A stretch of DNA of 64,000 bases from Alphaproteobacteria bacterium SO-S41 (GTDB lineage: Bacteria; Pseudomonadota; Alphaproteobacteria; Micropepsales; Micropepsaceae), in assembly GCA_019670725.1 (NCBI GenBank), contig AP024629.1, positions 1,860,001-1,924,000 on the forward strand. Direction: 5' to 3'. Both the position numbers and the translations under genes were made by a program. The notes beneath the pieces were generated by a model that worked only from the letters and a program-made list of their open reading frames with translations, made no database searches and was not told the DNA's origin. The stretch's first letter is position 1; every line of letters starts with the position of its first letter. Shown one piece after another: positions 33,192 to 63,418 of this stretch.

Positions 33192-34583
33192 ATGAATCAC
33201 GTCGATATGCTGGTGATCGGCAGCGGGCCGGCGGGGCGGCGGGCAGCCGTGCAGTCGGCGAAGCTCGGCAAGTCCGTGCTGGTGGTCGATCGCGGCAAGC
33301 GGCTGGGCGGGGTATCGGTGCATACGGGCACCATTCCGTCGAAGACCTTGCGCGAGACGGTGCTCAACCTGAGCGGATGGCGCGAGCGCGGCTTCTACGG
33401 CCGCGGCTACCGCGTGAAGCAGCACATCTCGTCGGGCGACCTCGTTGAGCGGCTGAAGAAGACGCTCGATCACGAGGTCGAGGTGCTGCAGCACCAGTTC
33501 ATGCGGAACATGGTGGAAAGCGTCTTCGCCAGCGCGACGTTCCTGGGTCCCAATCGCGTGCAGCTCACCACCGAGGCCGAAGAGGTGAGCGAGGTCGCGT
33601 TCGACCATGCGCTGATCGCGGTCGGCACGCATCCCTATCGCCCCGCCCATGTGCCATTCGACGGCAAGCGGATCTTCGACAGCGACGAGATCCTGGAGCT
33701 GGAACACCTGCCGCGCACGCTCACCGTGATCGGCGGCGGGGTGATCGGGGTGGAGTATGCGACGATCTTCTCGGCGCTCGACGTGCCGGTGACGCTGATC
33801 GAGCCGCGCGACGAGATCCTGGAATTCGTCGACCGCGAGATCGTCGACGATTTCATCCATCAGATGCGCGATCGCGGCATGACGATCCGCCTGGGCGGGG
33901 CGATCAAGGAGATCGTCTCCAAGCCCGACTGCGCCGAGGTGACGCTGGCCGACGGCCGACGGGTGCGATCGGAGATGCTGCTCTATGCGGCGGGGCGGTC
34001 GGGCAATATCGCTGGGCTGGGCCTGGACGCGCTGGGGCTGGACGCCGACAGCCGCGGGCGGCTGAAGGTCGATCCGCACACCTATCAGACCGCCGTGCCG
34101 CACATCTATGCGGCGGGCGACGTGATCGGTTTTCCGAGCCTCGCTTCGACCTCGATGGAGCAGGGGCGCGTCGCGGCGTGCCACGCTTTCGGCATGAAGT
34201 TGCCGCCGTCGCCGGAGACCTTTCCCTATGGCATCTATTCGGTGCCGGAGATTTCGACGGTCGGCCAGTCCGAGGAAGAGGTCAGGGCCAGCGGCGTCGC
34301 TTACGAATGCGGCATCGCGCGATTCCGCGAGACCTCGCGCGGCCACATCATGGGCGTCAATTCGGGGTTCCTGAAACTGATCTTCGCACTGGAGACGCGG
34401 CGCCTGCTGGGTGCGCATATCGTCGGCGAGGGCGCGACGGAGCTGATCCATATCGGGCAGGCGGTGATCAACCTGCACGGCACGGTCGATTTCTTCGTCG
34501 AGAACACCTTCAACTATCCGACGCTCGCCGAGGGCTACAAGATCGCCGGGCTGGATGCGTGGAACCGGATGGGGCAGGTCTGA
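33192..34583 (+). CDS. sthA: Soluble (Si-specific) NAD(P)+ transhydrogenase
   Basis: The 463-residue flavoprotein belongs to the disulfide-reductase fold (FAD motif GSGPAGRRAA at 10-19, NAD motif VIGGGVIGVEYA near 178-189, dimer domain at the C-terminus). The place of the redox disulfide reads GGVSVHTGTIPSKTLRET, with no CxxxxC, which is diagnostic of SthA. It interconverts NADPH and NADH and helps balance pyridine nucleotides. Start ATG 33192 with the sequence MNHVDMLVIGSGPAG. Length and C-terminus match the family. Confidence 0.95.
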   Translation: MNHVDMLVIGSGPAGRRAAVQSAKLGKSVLVVDRGKRLGGVSVHTGTIPSKTLRETVLNLSGWRERGFYGRGYRVKQHISSGDLVERLKKTLDHEVEVLQHQFMRNMVESVFASATFLGPNRVQLTTEAEEVSEVAFDHALIAVGTHPYRPAHVPFDGKRIFDSDEILELEHLPRTLTVIGGGVIGVEYATIFSALDVPVTLIEPRDEILEFVDREIVDDFIHQMRDRGMTIRLGGAIKEIVSKPDCAEVTLADGRRVRSEMLLYAAGRSGNIAGLGLDALGLDADSRGRLKVDPHTYQTAVPHIYAAGDVIGFPSLASTSMEQGRVAACHAFGMKLPPSPETFPYGIYSVPEISTVGQSEEEVRASGVAYECGIARFRETSRGHIMGVNSGFLKLIFALETRRLLGAHIVGEGATELIHIGQAVINLHGTVDFFVENTFNYPTLAEGYKIAGLDAWNRMGQV

Positions 34584-34615
34584 CGGGACCTGCGCGGTTG
34601 TGCTAGGGTAGCGTC

Positions 34616-35152
34616 ATGCGCGCGCTCTCCCGGTTCTTCTGGACAACACTGGCGGTCATCTTCCTGATCGAGGCGTGGCTGTGGTCGCATCTGGAGCCGC
34701 TGGTGGCGGCTGTGGTGCGTGCCATTCCGCTGGCGCGCGTGAAGGCGGCGATCGCGGCGGGAGTGAACCGCCTGCCGCCCTTTCTGGTGCTGTTCGTCTT
34801 CCTGATCCCGATGGCGGTGCTGTTCCCGTTCAAGCTGGCGGCGCTGTGGTTCCTCGCCAACGGGCAGATCGTGCTGGGCGTCGCCACCTTCGTGCTGGCG
34901 AAACTGGTGGGCGTCGCGGTGGCGGCGTTCCTGTTCGAGACCTGCAAGCCGAAGCTGATGCAGATGGCATGGTTCGCGCGGTTCTATGCCTGGTTCGTCA
35001 GGGTGTGGACCTGGGCGCATGGACTGGTCGATCCCATCAAGGCACGGATCAAGGGCTGGATGGCGCGGTTGCGCGGCAAGGCCCGCAGCGGCTTCGCCCG
35101 GCGCTTCGCCTGGCTGCGCGGCCGGGCGCGGCGGCGGGACGAAGCGGTTTAG
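34616..35152 (+). CDS. Conserved membrane protein, unknown function
   Basis: The 178-residue protein begins with a hydrophobic segment (about 9-25, FFWTTLAVIFLIEAWLW). Two further hydrophobic helices (about 53-75 and 84-107) follow, and a strongly basic C-terminal tail (about 135-178, rich in Arg/Lys). No domain is recognised. The tail suggests a cytoplasmic, nucleic-acid- or lipid-facing end. The gene lies 32 bp after sthA on the same strand and is followed by a terminator at 35160-35200. Confidence 0.82.
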   Translation: MRALSRFFWTTLAVIFLIEAWLWSHLEPLVAAVVRAIPLARVKAAIAAGVNRLPPFLVLFVFLIPMAVLFPFKLAALWFLANGQIVLGVATFVLAKLVGVAVAAFLFETCKPKLMQMAWFARFYAWFVRVWTWAHGLVDPIKARIKGWMARLRGKARSGFARRFAWLRGRARRRDEAV

Positions 35153-35159
35153 CCAAAGG

Positions 35160-35200
35160 AAAAGGGCCGGGGCTTTCGCCGCCGGCCCTTTTCAAATTTT
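35160..35200. terminator. Bidirectional intrinsic terminator
   Basis: AAAAGGGCCGG (35160-35170) pairs with CCGGCCCTTTT (35182-35192), a perfect 11-bp stem with an 11-nt loop that itself can pair partly. A-rich and T-rich flanks exist on both sides, so it can stop transcripts from the left gene and from the microprotein gene on the minus strand. Confidence 0.8.
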
Positions 35201-35213
35201 TGGGTCTGCCTCT

Positions 35214-35285
35214 TTAGAGGAAAAACAGAATGGCCCCGAGGAAGAGGAAGACTGCACCCGTGGTCAACGCACCGACCTGTTGCAT
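35214..35285 (-). CDS. Predicted 23-residue single-span membrane microprotein
   Basis: An ATG at 35285 preceded by GGGAGAG (5-bp spacing) opens a 24-codon frame ending in TAA at 35214, just before the bidirectional terminator. The product starts MQQVGALTTG and continues with about 13 almost purely hydrophobic residues (AVFLFLGAILFFL), enough for one membrane helix. No homologue is recognised. The combination of a good ribosome site, all-hydrophobic coding and a dedicated terminator makes it a plausible small gene, but this is inference. Confidence 0.5.
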   Translation of the reverse strand: MQQVGALTTGAVFLFLGAILFFL

Positions 35286-35478
35286 GTGAACTCTCCCTGA
35301 ACAGCTACGGCCTTAACTGTGGCCGGAAAGCGACAAATCACCAAATCAAAACGATTCCGCACTGCAACCGGTTCCGCAACTTTGTTGCCGTAACGGAAGC
35401 GTTCGTGTCGTCGGACACCCCGTACATAGGCGAGAAGTTGCGGGGGAGCGATAAGCCGGACTTATGTCTCGCTTTACC

Positions 35479-36171
35479 CTACCAGCGCTGCGGCGAGCCG
35501 TCGTAGTCGATGAGCTTGCCCGAATCGGCCGGGGTCAGCCGGTCGATGGCGGCGCGCATGGCCCCGATGCTCTGTTCCGGCGACAGCGGGGCGCCGGGGC
35601 CGCCCATGTCGGTCCGCACCCAGCCGGGGCTGACGGGGACGGCGATGATGCCGTCGGACCGCCAGTCCTGCGCGAGGGTCGAGACCAGCTTGTTCACCGC
35701 CGCCTTCGAGGTGCGATAGGCGAGCTGGCCGCCGCCCTTGTCGGCGTTCGAGCCCATGCCCGAGGTGATCGCGATGAAGCGCTTGCCCGTGCCCGCGGCG
35801 AGGCCGTCATGCACGATGGACGCGATGCGCAGGACGCTGAGCGTATTCGTCGCGAAGAGGTCGAGCCAGGCAGAGTAGTCCATGTCGCGCCAGGTTTGGT
35901 GGTCGCCGCCATAGGAGCCGGCATTGGCGATGACGATGTCGAGCGGGTGGCCCTTGAGGACCGCCTTCAGCGCCTGAACCGAGGTGTCGTCGGTGACGTC
36001 GAGGGGATGCAGCGTGACGCGGCCGTTCGCGCCCGCGGCGATCGCGCTGAGGGCGTCGGCATCGGCGGGCGTGCGGCAGGCCGCGAAGACGCGGGCGCCG
36101 GCGGCGGCATATTGGCGGACGAATTCAAGACCGAGGCCGCGATTGGCTCCGGTGATCAGAACGGACGTCAT
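35479..36171 (-). CDS. Short-chain dehydrogenase/reductase
   Basis: The 230-residue SDR has TGANRGLGLEFVRQY (GxxxGxG cofactor motif), IVIANAG (NNAG-like), the catalytic Ser in AITSGMGSN and the Tyr-x3-Lys motif AYRTSKAAV. SPGWVRTDMGG follows. It resembles the sniffer/CsgA-like SDR branch, NADP-dependent with unknown carbonyl substrate. ATG 36171 begins with MTSVLITGANRGLG. It is upstream on the minus strand of the oxoprolinase gene's 3' end region. Confidence 0.92.
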   Translation of the reverse strand: MTSVLITGANRGLGLEFVRQYAAAGARVFAACRTPADADALSAIAAGANGRVTLHPLDVTDDTSVQALKAVLKGHPLDIVIANAGSYGGDHQTWRDMDYSAWLDLFATNTLSVLRIASIVHDGLAAGTGKRFIAITSGMGSNADKGGGQLAYRTSKAAVNKLVSTLAQDWRSDGIIAVPVSPGWVRTDMGGPGAPLSPEQSIGAMRAAIDRLTPADSGKLIDYDGSPQRW

Positions 36172-36256
36172 AGGCGCCTCCTCGGCCGCCGCATCGGTGC
36201 GGCGGGGGTTATGTAGGCAGCCTCAGAGCCAGCGCAAACGGGCGGGGCGCGAAAGG

Positions 36257-39200
36257 CTAAGCCGCGCCGTAGCCGCCGCCGCCGGGGGTTTCGATGAGGA
36301 TGGCATCGCCGGCGGCCATTTCGGTCTGGTCCGCCCCGCCGAGCGGCGCGCGCGTGCCGTCGGCGCGGAGGACGGTGTTGCGGCCCATGGCGGCGTCGCC
36401 GCCGCCGGCGAGGCCGAAGGGGGCGGTTTCGCGCCGGGTGGCGAGGATCGAGCAGGTCATCGGGGCGCGGAAGGTGATGCGGCGCGCGACGCCGTCGCCG
36501 CCCTTATGCGCGCCCGTGCCGCCGGAGCCGCGGCGGATGGCGAAGCTGTCGACCAGGACCGGGAAACGCTGTTCGAGGATTTCGGGATCGGTCAAGCGCG
36601 AGTTGGTCATGTGGGTGTGGACAGCGGAGGCGCCGTCGAAATCCGGCCCCGCGCCGGCGCCGCCGCAGATCGTCTCGTAATACTGGTAGCGCGCGTCGCC
36701 GAAGGTGAGGTTGTTCATCGTGCCCTGGCTGGCGGCGATGACGCCCATCGCGCCGAAGATAGCGTCGGTGACGGCCTGGCTGGTTTCGACATTGCCCGCG
36801 ACGACCGCGGCGGGATAGCGGGGTGCGAGCATCGAGCCGGCGGGGATATGGATGTCGAGCGGGCGGAGGCAGCCGGCATTCAGCGGGATGTCGTCGTCGG
36901 CGAGGCAGCGGAAGCAATAGAGGACGGCGGCCTTGGTGACGCTGGAGGGGGCGTTGAAATTGTTGGGCTGCTGCTCTGAGGTGCCGGCGAAGTCGATGCG
37001 GGCGGAACGGGCGACGGGGTCGACATCGATCGTCACACGGATGGTTGCGCCGCCGTCCATGGGGACTTCGAAACTGCCGGGCTTGAGGGCCGCGATGGCC
37101 TGGCGGACGACGGCTTCGGCATTGTCCTGAACGTGGCCCATATAGGCCTTCACGACGGCGAGCCCGTATTGCGCAGTCATGCGGTGGAGTTCGTCGGCGC
37201 CCTTGGTGCAGGCGGCGATCTGGGCCTTGAGGTCGGCGACGTTCTGGTCGGGGTTGCGCGAGGGATGCTTGCCCGCGCCGAGGAGGACGCGCAGGCCGGC
37301 TTCGTCGAACTGGCCGGCATGGACGATCTGGACGGCGTCGAGCAGGACGCCCTCGTCTTCGACGCTGCGCGAGAAGGGCGGCATGGAGCCGGGGGCGATG
37401 CCGCCGATATCGGCATGGTGGCCGCGGGCGGCGCAGAAGAAGCGCGGGGTCGTGTCGCCGTCGCCGAAGACGGGCATGACGACCGTGACGTCCGGCAGGT
37501 GTGTGCCGCCGGCATAGGGGGCGTTGAGGGCGAAGGCGTCGCCCGGCTGCATGTCCGGGTGGCGCGCGCGCACGGCTTCGACGCTGTCGCCCATGCTGCC
37601 CAGATGCACCGGCATGTGCGGCGCGTTGGCGATGAGCGCGGCGTCGGCATCGTAGATGGCGCAGGAGAAATCGAGCCGCTCCTTGATGTTCACGGAGGCC
37701 GCGGTCTTTTCCAGCGTCAGGCCCATTTGCTCGGCGATGGACATGAAGAGGTTGTTGAAGATTTCCAGCATCACCGGATCGGCCGCGGTGCCGGCGACCG
37801 CGCGATGCGGGCGGGCGGCGATGCGGCGGAGGATGACTTCGCCGCCGGGGGCGATCTCGGCGCGCCAGCCGGGTTCGATGACGACGGTCTGGTTCGGTTC
37901 GATGAGGAGGGCGGGGCCAGGCAAGTTCTGGCCGTGCCCGAGCTGTTCGCGGCGGTGGACGGGGGCGTCGTGGAAGGCACCGTCCATGAAGAGGCGCGTG
38001 GTGGCCGAGGGCGCGGGCAAGGGGGCGGTAGTGGGCGTGGCCGTGACGTGCGGTTGGGTCGCGCCGCCTCCGCTGGCTTCGGCCTGGAGCGAGTCCACGA
38101 CGAGGCCGCGGCCCTCGAAGCCGAACCCGAAGCGCTTGGTGTGCGCGGCGGTGAAGGCGGCGCGCATCTCGTCCAGCGCGCCGAACGGGATTTCGAGCGT
38201 GGTGTCGGTGCCGTCATAGCGGATCTGCGCGGCGAGGGTGGTGTGGATGGAAGGTGCGTCCTTCGAGACGCCGCTGCGCGGCTCCTCAGGATGAGGAGCG
38301 TGGGGGTTTAGTTGGGCTTCCAGCTCTGCGTGCGTTTCGGCGGCCAGTTGCTGGGCGATGATGTGAAGGTCGTCCATCGCGTCAAAGGTCAGCGGCGTGC
38401 CGACGGCGCGTTGTTTGAAGGCGCGCAGTTTCGCGAGTCCGATGCCGTAGGCGGAGAGGAGGCCCGAGAAAGGGTGGATCAGCACGGTCTCCATGCCCAG
38501 CGCGTCGGCGACGAGGCAAGCATGCTGGCCGCCCGCGCCGCCGAAGCAGTTGAGCGCATAGGCGGTGATATTGTAGCCGCGGGCGACGGAGATCTTCTTC
38601 ACCGCATTCGCCATGTTGGCGACGGCGATGGCGACGAAGCCTTCGGCGATGTCTTCGGCGGGCTTGCCGATCTGCGCGGCAAGGTCGGCGAAGGCGGTGC
38701 GGACGGCGTCGGCGTCGAGCGGTTCGTTCTCGGCGGGTCCGAAGATGGCGGGGAAGAAAGCGGGCTGGAGCTTGCCCAGCATGACATTCGCGTCGGTGAC
38801 GGTGAGCGGGCCGCCGCGGCGATAGGCCTTCGGCCCCGGATTGGCGCCGGCGCTGTCGGGGCCAACGCGCATGCGCAGGCCGTCGTAATGTAGGATCGAG
38901 CCGCCGCCGGCCGCGACGGTGTGGATCAGCATCATCGGCGCGCGCAGGCGGACGCCGGCGACCATAGTTTCCTGCTCGCGTTCGTACTGGCCGTCGAAGT
39001 GGCAGACATCGGTGGACGTGCCGCCCATGTCGAAGCCGATGATCTTGTCGAAACCCGCGGCGCGTCCGCTCTCCGCCGCGCCGACCACGCCGCCCGCGGG
39101 GCCGGAGAGGACGGCGTCCTTGCCTTGAAAGCGCGCGGCGTCGGTGAGGCCGCCGGAGGACTGCATGAAGTGGAGTTTCGCGTCGGCGCCGAGGCCGGCG

Positions 39201-39886
39201 CGCACGCGGCCGACGTAACGGCCGAGGACGGGGGAGAGATAGGCGTCGACCACTGTGGTGTCGCCGCGCGAGACGAATTTCTGCAGCGGGGAGACTTCGT
39301 GGCTGACGCTGACCTGCGTGAAGCCGAGCGCGCGGGCGATGGCGGCGGCGCGGGCTTCGTGGGCGGGATAGCGGTAGCCGTGCAGGAGGCAGATGGCGCA
39401 GGCGGTGAGGCCACCGGCGCGGGCGGCGGTGAGCGCGGTGGTCAGGGCGGCTTCGTCGAGCGGGGCGAGGATTTCGCCTTCGGCGGTGACGCGCTCACCG
39501 GCCTCGATGACGCTATCATAGAGCATGTCCGGCAAGTCGATCCGGCGAACGAACAGCTTGGGGCGGTTCTGGTAGCCGATGCGAAGCTGGTCGGCGAAGC
39601 CGCGCGTGACGACAAGGACCAGCGGCTCGCCCTCGCGCTCGAGCAGCGCGTTGGTGGCGACGGTGGTGCCCATCTTCACGGCGTCGATGCGGTCGGCGGG
39701 GACGGGGGCGCCGGGCGCGAGGGCAAGAGCGCGGCGGATGCCTTCGACGGCGGCGTCCGGATAGCGCTCGGGGTTTTCGGAGAGCAGCTTGGTGGCGCTG
39801 AGCGCCCCGTCCGGCGCGCGGGCAATGACGTCGGTGAACGTGCCGCCGCGATCGATCCAGAACTGCCAGGTGTCAGAGGTCATCAT
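36257..39886 (-). CDS. Hydantoinase/5-oxoprolinase family protein (HyuA-HyuB fusion)
   Basis: A 1209-residue ATP-dependent amide hydrolase. An N-terminal HyuA-type half (about 1-690, [18 protein letters not shown], actin-like ATPase motifs [11 protein letters not shown]) is joined to a HyuB half (about 705-1205, [18 protein letters not shown], ...TPGGGGYG). Members hydrolyse 5-oxoproline or hydantoins using ATP. Unusually, residues about 531-545 ([13 protein letters not shown]) derive from a family A repeat at 38253-38300. The frame stays open, so the gene may still be functional. The insert lies near the domain boundary of HyuA and may be tolerated as a loop. Confidence 0.93.
38253..38300 (+). 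repeat. Partial family A repeat inside the oxoprolinase gene
   Basis: GTGCGTCCTTCGAGACG and GCTCCTCAGGATGAGGAG match, in reverse complement, the first ~45 bp of the family A elements at 42635 and 15588. It is in frame and adds about 15 codons to the minus-strand gene. Confidence 0.8.
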
Positions 39887-42789: not shown

Positions 42790-43152
42790 GCGTCAGATGG
42801 CTGGATGGCCGCGGCATTTCGGTGTCGAGGAAAGTCCGGGCTCCACGGAGAGATGGTGCCGGGTAACCCCCGGCGGGGGCGACCCCAGGGATAGCGCCAC
42901 AGAAAACAAACCGCCCGGAACGCGTTCCGGGTCAGGGTGAAACGGTGGGGTAAGAGCCCACCGCGGATGCGGCAACGCAGACGGCACGGCAAGCCCCACC
43001 AGGAGCAAGACCGAATAGGGGTGGCATATGGGCCTTCTTCGGCTCGTCGCCCGGGTTGGTCGCGCGAGGCGTTCGGCAACGAACGTCCCAGAGGAATGGT
43101 CATCCATCCGCGCAAGCGGGGGACAGAACCCGGCTTACAGGCCATCTGACGC
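42790..43152 (+). ncRNA. rnpB: RNase P RNA, class A (alphaproteobacterial)
   Basis: The core GAGGAAAGTCCGGGCTCCAC, GGTGCCGGGTAACCCCCGGC, GGGCGACCCCAGGGATAGCG and CCACAGAAAACAAACCGCCC at the 5' side are conserved P RNA segments. GGTGGGGTAAGAGCCCACCG and GAACCCGGCTTACAGGCC complete the pseudoknot regions. GCGTCAGATGGC (42790-42801) pairs with GCCATCTGACGC (43141-43152) as the P1 helix, which fixes the ends. A T-rich run (TTTTCATTTTC) follows. It is the catalytic RNA that matures tRNA 5' ends. Minus-strand frames over it are chance. Confidence 0.96.
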
Positions 43153-43193
43153 TTTTCATTTTCTTTTTGAGGCCGAGGGCGAACGCCCAAGCC

Positions 43194-63268: not shown

Positions 63269-63418
63269 ACAGGCGTGTCATCTGGCGTCCGATTGTCCAG
63301 TAATATCAATCGGTTGATTGCTGAAACAGTTGGAAACAATCCTTGTTTCGCTGCAGCGCAAAATAAACCCTATTTACTTCGGCGTGGAGCGGGGAATTTC
63401 CGGTCCGGGAGTACGCAC

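Follow-up and report, generated by a model that had tools for sequence, protein, structure and literature searches.

Does the short open reading frame at positions 35214 to 35285 (minus strand) of the window, the whole 64,000-nucleotide stretch of Alphaproteobacteria bacterium SO-S41 DNA that was analysed, encode a protein, and if so, what might this protein do? The frame comprises 23 codons from an ATG start, followed by a TAA stop, and was delineated on the basis of its sequence and of in-frame conservation, with MQQVGALTTGAVFLFLGAILFFL as its product. A Shine-Dalgarno-like sequence (AGGGAGAG; 35291 to 35298, minus strand) is recognisable from the sequence, with its last base five bases before the ATG. 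The window protein has a GRAVY of 1.77 (2.2 over its top 19-residue stretch), and its composition includes a single hydrophobic stretch of bilayer-spanning length. A first-pass annotation had proposed a real small gene here, with a good ribosome site, an almost entirely hydrophobic product capable of one membrane span, and a terminator just after the stop codon. The first two of these features are borne out, and the product is predicted from its composition to insert as a single-pass inner-membrane protein.

The DNA of the locus was matched in 9/41 genomes, the window's own included. Three of the matches (L009 to L011), one of them the sole match in genome G015, span the terminator-like part only and not the ORF, while the remaining matched loci contain the same frame, each with its own start and stop codon. 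At the genus level, both the DNA and the frame are present in 5/5 genomes examined, again counting that of the window. Using a profile of 31 members and a cut-off of E <= 0.005, homologues of 23 to 26 residues could be distinguished in 39/96 genomes of the order, with exactly one match per genome, and these represent seven of the seven genera (g1, 5/5 genomes; g2, 5/7; g3, 1/1; g4, 2/2; g5, 9/11; g6, 16/69; g7, 1/1). No copy could be detected in 57/96 order genomes, and the microprotein is therefore either dispensable or diverged in those strains. A sample of 385 genomes of the class, searched with an earlier 21-member profile (E <= 0.01), yielded five with a match: the genome of the window, G217 and G320, which belong to one family, G151, from a second family, and G414. 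The last was discarded, its match being part of a 383-aa frame. Outside the order of the window, homologues are carried by three genomes in two other alphaproteobacterial orders, with 2/2 genomes positive in the order of G217. The 38 members compared below comprise those of 35 of the 39 order genomes and the three from outside, four g6 genomes (G045, G048, G065 and G086) having yielded no locus; related sequences among them are not independent of each other. ATG is the start codon in 33 members, GTG in two and TTG in three.

Pairwise codon changes among the members are predominantly silent. In g1, 83 of 93 changes are silent and 10 alter the residue, against 31.7 silent changes expected, while the corresponding values for g1, g3 and g4 combined are 284 silent and 74 changing (122.2 silent expected), for g5 412 and 129 (163.6 expected), and for the 12/17 members of g2/g6 taken into the analysis 862 and 654 (483.1 expected). 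Members of g7 and those from outside the order were left out of these comparisons. The excess of silent changes has the same direction in every group, the pairs not being independent, and omega-like values of 0.06 (g1; five members), 0.14 (g5; nine members) and 0.35 (g2/g6; 12/17 members) were obtained. The alignment of the members is most strongly conserved at F-x-F-L-G-A and at a glycine near the end, with a family pattern of roughly M-x(3)-[LV]-x-x-L-T-T-G-x-V-F-x-F-L-G-A-[IV]-x-x-G. Near the C-terminus, the proteins of the window and of G003 are one residue shorter than those of the other genus members. The very short length of the frame and the hairpin directly 3' of it would also suit a chance ORF, a leader peptide or a small RNA without a product. 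The silent-change bias argues against this group of explanations, and a chance ORF is rejected by the codon-change pattern.

The signals flanking the frame are likewise retained. A strict Shine-Dalgarno sequence is found 4 to 20 bases before the start in 33/38 members, as compared to 4.5 % in shuffled sequences, and a hairpin of <= -20 kcal/mol, followed by a T run and no more than 110 bases from the stop, in 29/38 members versus 1/114 shuffles. At a laxer limit of -8 kcal/mol, a hairpin is found in 34/38 members and 62/114 shuffles, and discrimination is small. In the window, an intrinsic-terminator-like hairpin, delineated by folding and by its counterparts in the members (35159 to 35193, with no strand assigned), begins 20 bases past the stop codon and folds at -31.9 kcal/mol with its flanks; on either strand, none of 200 shuffles folds as well (z -3.8 on the minus and -4.4 on the plus strand). 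The terminator of the first-pass annotation is thus present, but it is bidirectional, being also situated directly 3' of a convergent gene (34616 to 35152, plus strand) to which it is common, and in the window alone it provides no proof of a terminator for this ORF. The hairpin is nevertheless retained in relatives in which the downstream gene differs. A scan of positions 34000 to 36500 against strict consensus sequences listed neither a terminator nor a promoter. With regard to the leader peptide, a same-strand downstream gene is common to at most 5/24 loci (cluster c7 in five, c16 in three); there is hence no common gene to attenuate, and the leader peptide is rejected. Overall, a chance ORF, a leader or a productless RNA is considered extremely improbable. 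The same frame in 5/5 genus genomes and the omega-like value of 0.06 provide the conserved coding in relatives to which the first-pass annotation had looked, and both frame and translation signal are conserved. With the frame, stop codon, ribosome site and hairpin kept across seven genera and, outside their order, in genomes belonging to two more, the stretch from 35214 to 35285 on the minus strand is a genuine, evolutionarily conserved protein-coding gene.

The genes surrounding the microprotein recur across the loci. Upstream in the window, on the same strand, are a short-chain dehydrogenase (SDR) gene (35479 to 36171, minus strand; Pfam adh_short, 4.9e-32), and a hydantoinase A/B gene of the 5-oxoprolinase type (36257 to 39886, minus strand; PF02538, 1.1e-199), both of which are frequent neighbours on the basis of synteny. 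The product of the convergent gene, 178 aa in length, is membrane-like and has no match in Pfam. The window also contains a B12-dependent methionine synthase gene (metH; Pfam 4.1e-127). Across 24 loci with wide flanks, for which genes were delineated with a simple caller and counts read off the synteny table (L139 and L140, where the ORF was missed by the pattern, and the repeats L052 and L053 being excluded), a hydantoinase or SDR gene is located upstream on the same strand in 21/24, the exceptions being L132, L136 and L138. Similarly, metH occurs within about 6 kb downstream in 21/24 loci, on the same strand in L047, and was not seen in L128 (a short contig), L138 and L145. The Pfam-based neighbour names rest on the genes of the window. 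Further neighbours presumably represent metF and arsR-type genes. The hydantoinase gene is also found upstream in both other orders (G217 and G151). We take these neighbours to mark an old genomic place rather than an operon. The SDR stop and the microprotein start are separated by 193 bases in the window, and with an upstream region and a hairpin of its own, the microprotein would form a separate unit. The 178-aa convergent protein (cluster c14) adjoins the microprotein in 3/5 genus genomes, as delineated by the simple gene caller.

Small size and hydrophobicity are also features of type I toxins and other toxic hydrophobic peptides of toxin-antitoxin pairs. A toxin is, however, difficult to reconcile with a single copy per genome, the location of which is largely constant in three orders. 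Furthermore, no match was obtained against PADLOC (31 members), nor against plasmids and phages at E 10, the latter being a weak test as a single 24-aa member was searched with the BLAST low-complexity filter on. A toxin or mobile element was rejected on the basis of these missing plasmid, phage and PADLOC matches, and a toxin is regarded as most improbable.

Comparison of the family with known proteins provided no convincing match in Pfam (21 members), NCBIfam, PHROGs or PADLOC (31 members each), and the 21-member profile retrieved no PDB chain at E 10. The absence of an NCBIfam model agrees with the suggestion of the first-pass annotation that standard callers would overlook the gene. Pfam DUF3188 is matched weakly along the whole ORF (0.037) and matches 2/21 members at E 1; its score of 14.1 bits does not reach the cut-off of 24.6 bits, so that membership was rejected and the match treated as similarity between hydrophobic helices. 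The other weak matches, for which no cut-offs are given, are to DUF7521 (0.0071; 1/21 members), HmcD (best 0.014; 5/31 members), YldA (0.02; 2/31 members), an unnamed PHROG (0.036; 2/31 members) and the NCBIfam family CcoM (0.59; 1/31 members). The literature searched contained neither of the peptide strings VFLFLGAI and VFAFLGAI. CydX, CcoM, KdpF, AcrZ and MgtS are bacterial small membrane proteins with a single helix, and the microprotein resembles these in being very short, with one hydrophobic helix and its own translation signals. It differs from them in lacking a convincing sequence relation and a recognised partner gene alongside. On sequence comparison the family is thus new, although small membrane proteins as a kind are known, and a link to the regulator PhaR, considered below, would be its interesting part.

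An alternative is that a respiratory or transport complex has the microprotein as a constitutive accessory subunit, as for CydX or CcoM, in which case the TGC element in its promoter would not be that of PhaR, or PhaR would be incidental. Small accessory subunits are short, consist of one hydrophobic helix and are encoded in single copy, and the microprotein fits in all three respects. The weak matches to CcoM and HmcD point the same way, but are of the sort given by any hydrophobic helix. In two g2 loci (L132 and L138), the adjoining or overlapping gene is one which we take to encode an EamA-type transporter, but this neighbour is not retained at other loci. No oxidase was recognised by eye among the recurrent neighbour clusters c0 to c25. 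The absence of a PDB chain at E 10 and the operator-like element common to phasin genes further weigh against an accessory subunit, which we consider unlikely.

The promoter region of the microprotein contains a PhaR-like operator, recognised by the published PhaR consensus (TGCAGTGCGGAATCGTTTT; 35348 to 35366, minus strand), with its core (TGCAGTGC; 35359 to 35366) 81 bases before the ATG. PhaR of B. diazoefficiens binds TGCRNYGCASMA (PMC6201568), while work on S. meliloti led to a PhaR palindrome, WNWDDNYGCRNYGCRNHHWNW, centred on YGCRNYGCR (PMC12542648). The core YGCRNYGC is located at -73 to -92 from the start in 23/38 microprotein promoters, versus 5/132 upstream regions of neighbour genes, and over the rest of the same upstream sequences the background is 0.046 per 20 bases; the interval was chosen after the sites were seen. 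The core is present in g1 (5/5), g4 (2/2), g5 (9/9), g7 (1/1), g2 (3/5) and the two other orders (3/3), and absent from g6 (0/12), g3 (0/1) and the remaining 2/5 g2 members. The genome of the window encodes PhaR (PF07879; 2.0e-30) and two phasins (Phasin_2; PF09361). The likeness to the PhaR (AniA) regulon of S. meliloti and B. diazoefficiens consists in this operator core, common to phasin genes, together with the presence of phaR. Phasin, PHB, central-carbon and exopolysaccharide genes are among the reported targets of that regulon, as are the cyo operon and the sRNA MmgR (PMC6201568, PMC12542648, as far as available). The term 'small protein' is absent from the main text, in its available parts, of the PhaR papers PMC12542648 and PMC10888616.

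A matrix trained on 18 sites from other species was used to scan 206,716 bases of this genome, which include overlaps, loci picked by pattern searches and two more copies of the window site (L092 and L113). The window's own site ranks first, with 30.1 bits. Rows two to eight represent four places, as the phasin sites and the site near 63.3 kb are each listed twice, and include both phasin promoters (L124, 21.3 and 19.6 bits on the two strands; L125, 19.5 and 16.3 bits), L096 (20.8 bits) and window positions 63343 to 63375 (17.7 and 17.2 bits). An operator-like element is thus common to the microprotein and this genome's own phasin genes. This could also be expected of a mini-phasin, with its helix on or in the surface of the PHB granule rather than in the membrane. 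A near-uniformly hydrophobic helix would, however, be more at home in a bilayer than on a granule surface, and Phasin_2 was not matched by any of the 21 members scanned, making a mini-phasin an improbable reading.

Other comparisons set bounds to the case for PhaR. At least 18 matches to the 21-letter S. meliloti consensus are found in 30/38 promoters versus 63/137 controls, so that single promoters are not separated; the shuffle p is <= 0.05 in 5/38, with the window promoter reaching 19/21 matches (p 0.13). Promoter by promoter, the 12-letter published PhaR consensus gives p values from 0.01 to 1.00. The core lies upstream of phaR itself in 10/31 loci read, drawn from the 89 genomes with a PhaR match, which is not convincing. 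A PhaR match occurs in 89/96 order genomes, with or without the microprotein, and because PhaR is near-universal in the order its co-occurrence with the microprotein is uninformative. Four genomes with the microprotein (G012, G064, G078 and G111; drafts of 74 to 82 % completeness) gave no PhaR match. PhaR control of the microprotein promoter is strongly suggested by the placement of the core and by the matrix scan; since the 21-letter consensus does not discriminate, the region upstream of phaR mostly lacks the core and PhaR is near-universal, it is suggested rather than shown.

Two further promoter candidates could be discerned. One is a possible housekeeping promoter (TTGGTG-N17-CACAGT; 35316 to 35344, minus strand), a weak and tentative assignment made by eye and missed by the consensus scan; some relatives in the genus have similar letters at this position. 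The other is a possible and likewise tentative EcfG-type promoter (GGAAC-N17-CGTTT; 35349 to 35375, minus strand), distinguished by a pattern scan and the genus alignment, and it would make the microprotein a small general-stress protein expressed from a GGAAC-N16/17-CGTT promoter. The element is present in 5/5 genus genomes, that of the window included, four having a spacing of 17 and one of 16, and never departs from the pattern by more than one mismatch; this genome contains 34 EcfG-like sites versus 10 for the reversed control pattern. The published promoter is GGAAC-N16-CGTT (PMC7083833), however, and in this genome 29/34 sites have a spacing of 16 and 5/34 a spacing of 17, the control not being split by spacing. 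As the spacing of the window element is the rarer one here, little weight is placed on it. Furthermore, GGAAC is absent at the matching spacing from the nine g5 promoters, and the overlap of the element with the PhaR core may be partly coincidental. EcfG was accordingly demoted as the main promoter on account of the spacing and the g5 promoters, and a general-stress protein appears even less probable than a mini-phasin.

The explanation we favour, with a probability of roughly 0.6, is that the microprotein is encoded by a single-gene unit of the PhaR regulon and is a single-pass inner-membrane protein that, while the cell stores carbon, tunes a partner in the membrane. PhaR is described, in the available text, as associated with PHB granules. 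As PHB builds up, granules would draw PhaR away from the operator situated 81 bases upstream of the start codon, and the operator thus freed would allow the microprotein to be produced and to insert in the inner membrane as one helix. There it may adjust a larger membrane protein, such as a transporter or a respiratory complex, to carbon-storage metabolism, both the partner and the effect being a guess. The PhaR-type element suggests production of the microprotein when cells store carbon, while PhaR binding, the sign of the regulation and membrane insertion are what we infer. Concerning the sign, the available parts of the literature report repression of most motif-bearing PhaR targets in S. 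meliloti (PMC12542648), and in R. eutropha repression of one phasin gene and activation of another (PMC12849132). As the product is a 23-residue chain that offers a single hydrophobic helix but lacks a soluble part, its most likely mode of action is contact with a component in or on the membrane. No conserved helix face could be discerned (moment p 0.63), and a partner surface is not supported by this helix-face test.

The family adds proteins of 23 to 26 residues to those without a convincing match in the databases searched, and it comes with a testable candidate regulator. Should PhaR control the microprotein, the response to stored carbon would reach a membrane target besides the granule surface, and the passage of PHB status to membrane processes would become testable. 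More tentatively, the family may represent a new class of PHB-responsive one-helix regulators, switched on by PhaR and retuning a membrane transporter or respiratory complex, a possibility to which we lean less than to the favoured explanation. If true, this would constitute a direct granule-to-membrane link through a protein of 25 residues, in at least three alphaproteobacterial orders.

Several other features of the genomes compared may be mentioned. Only 16/69 g6 genomes contain the microprotein, and none of the 12 g6 promoters read contains the core, which points to loss or regulatory rewiring inside one genus. A PhaR-like CGCTGCAGCGCAAAATAAA occurs at window positions 63343 to 63375, in the gap between genes which we presume to be ftsZ-like and lpxC-like, and precedes the latter; this element could connect outer-membrane lipid synthesis with storage. 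At L096 (G000:C1, about 2942392), positions 1482 to 1520, GGAAC-N16-CGTTT adjoins TTGCACTGCAA at the start of what we take to be an otsB-like gene, and EcfG-like and TGC elements are thus paired there, as they are in the microprotein promoter. The sole Rfam match in the window, away from the microprotein, is a class A RNase P RNA at positions 42793 to 43153 (312 bits).
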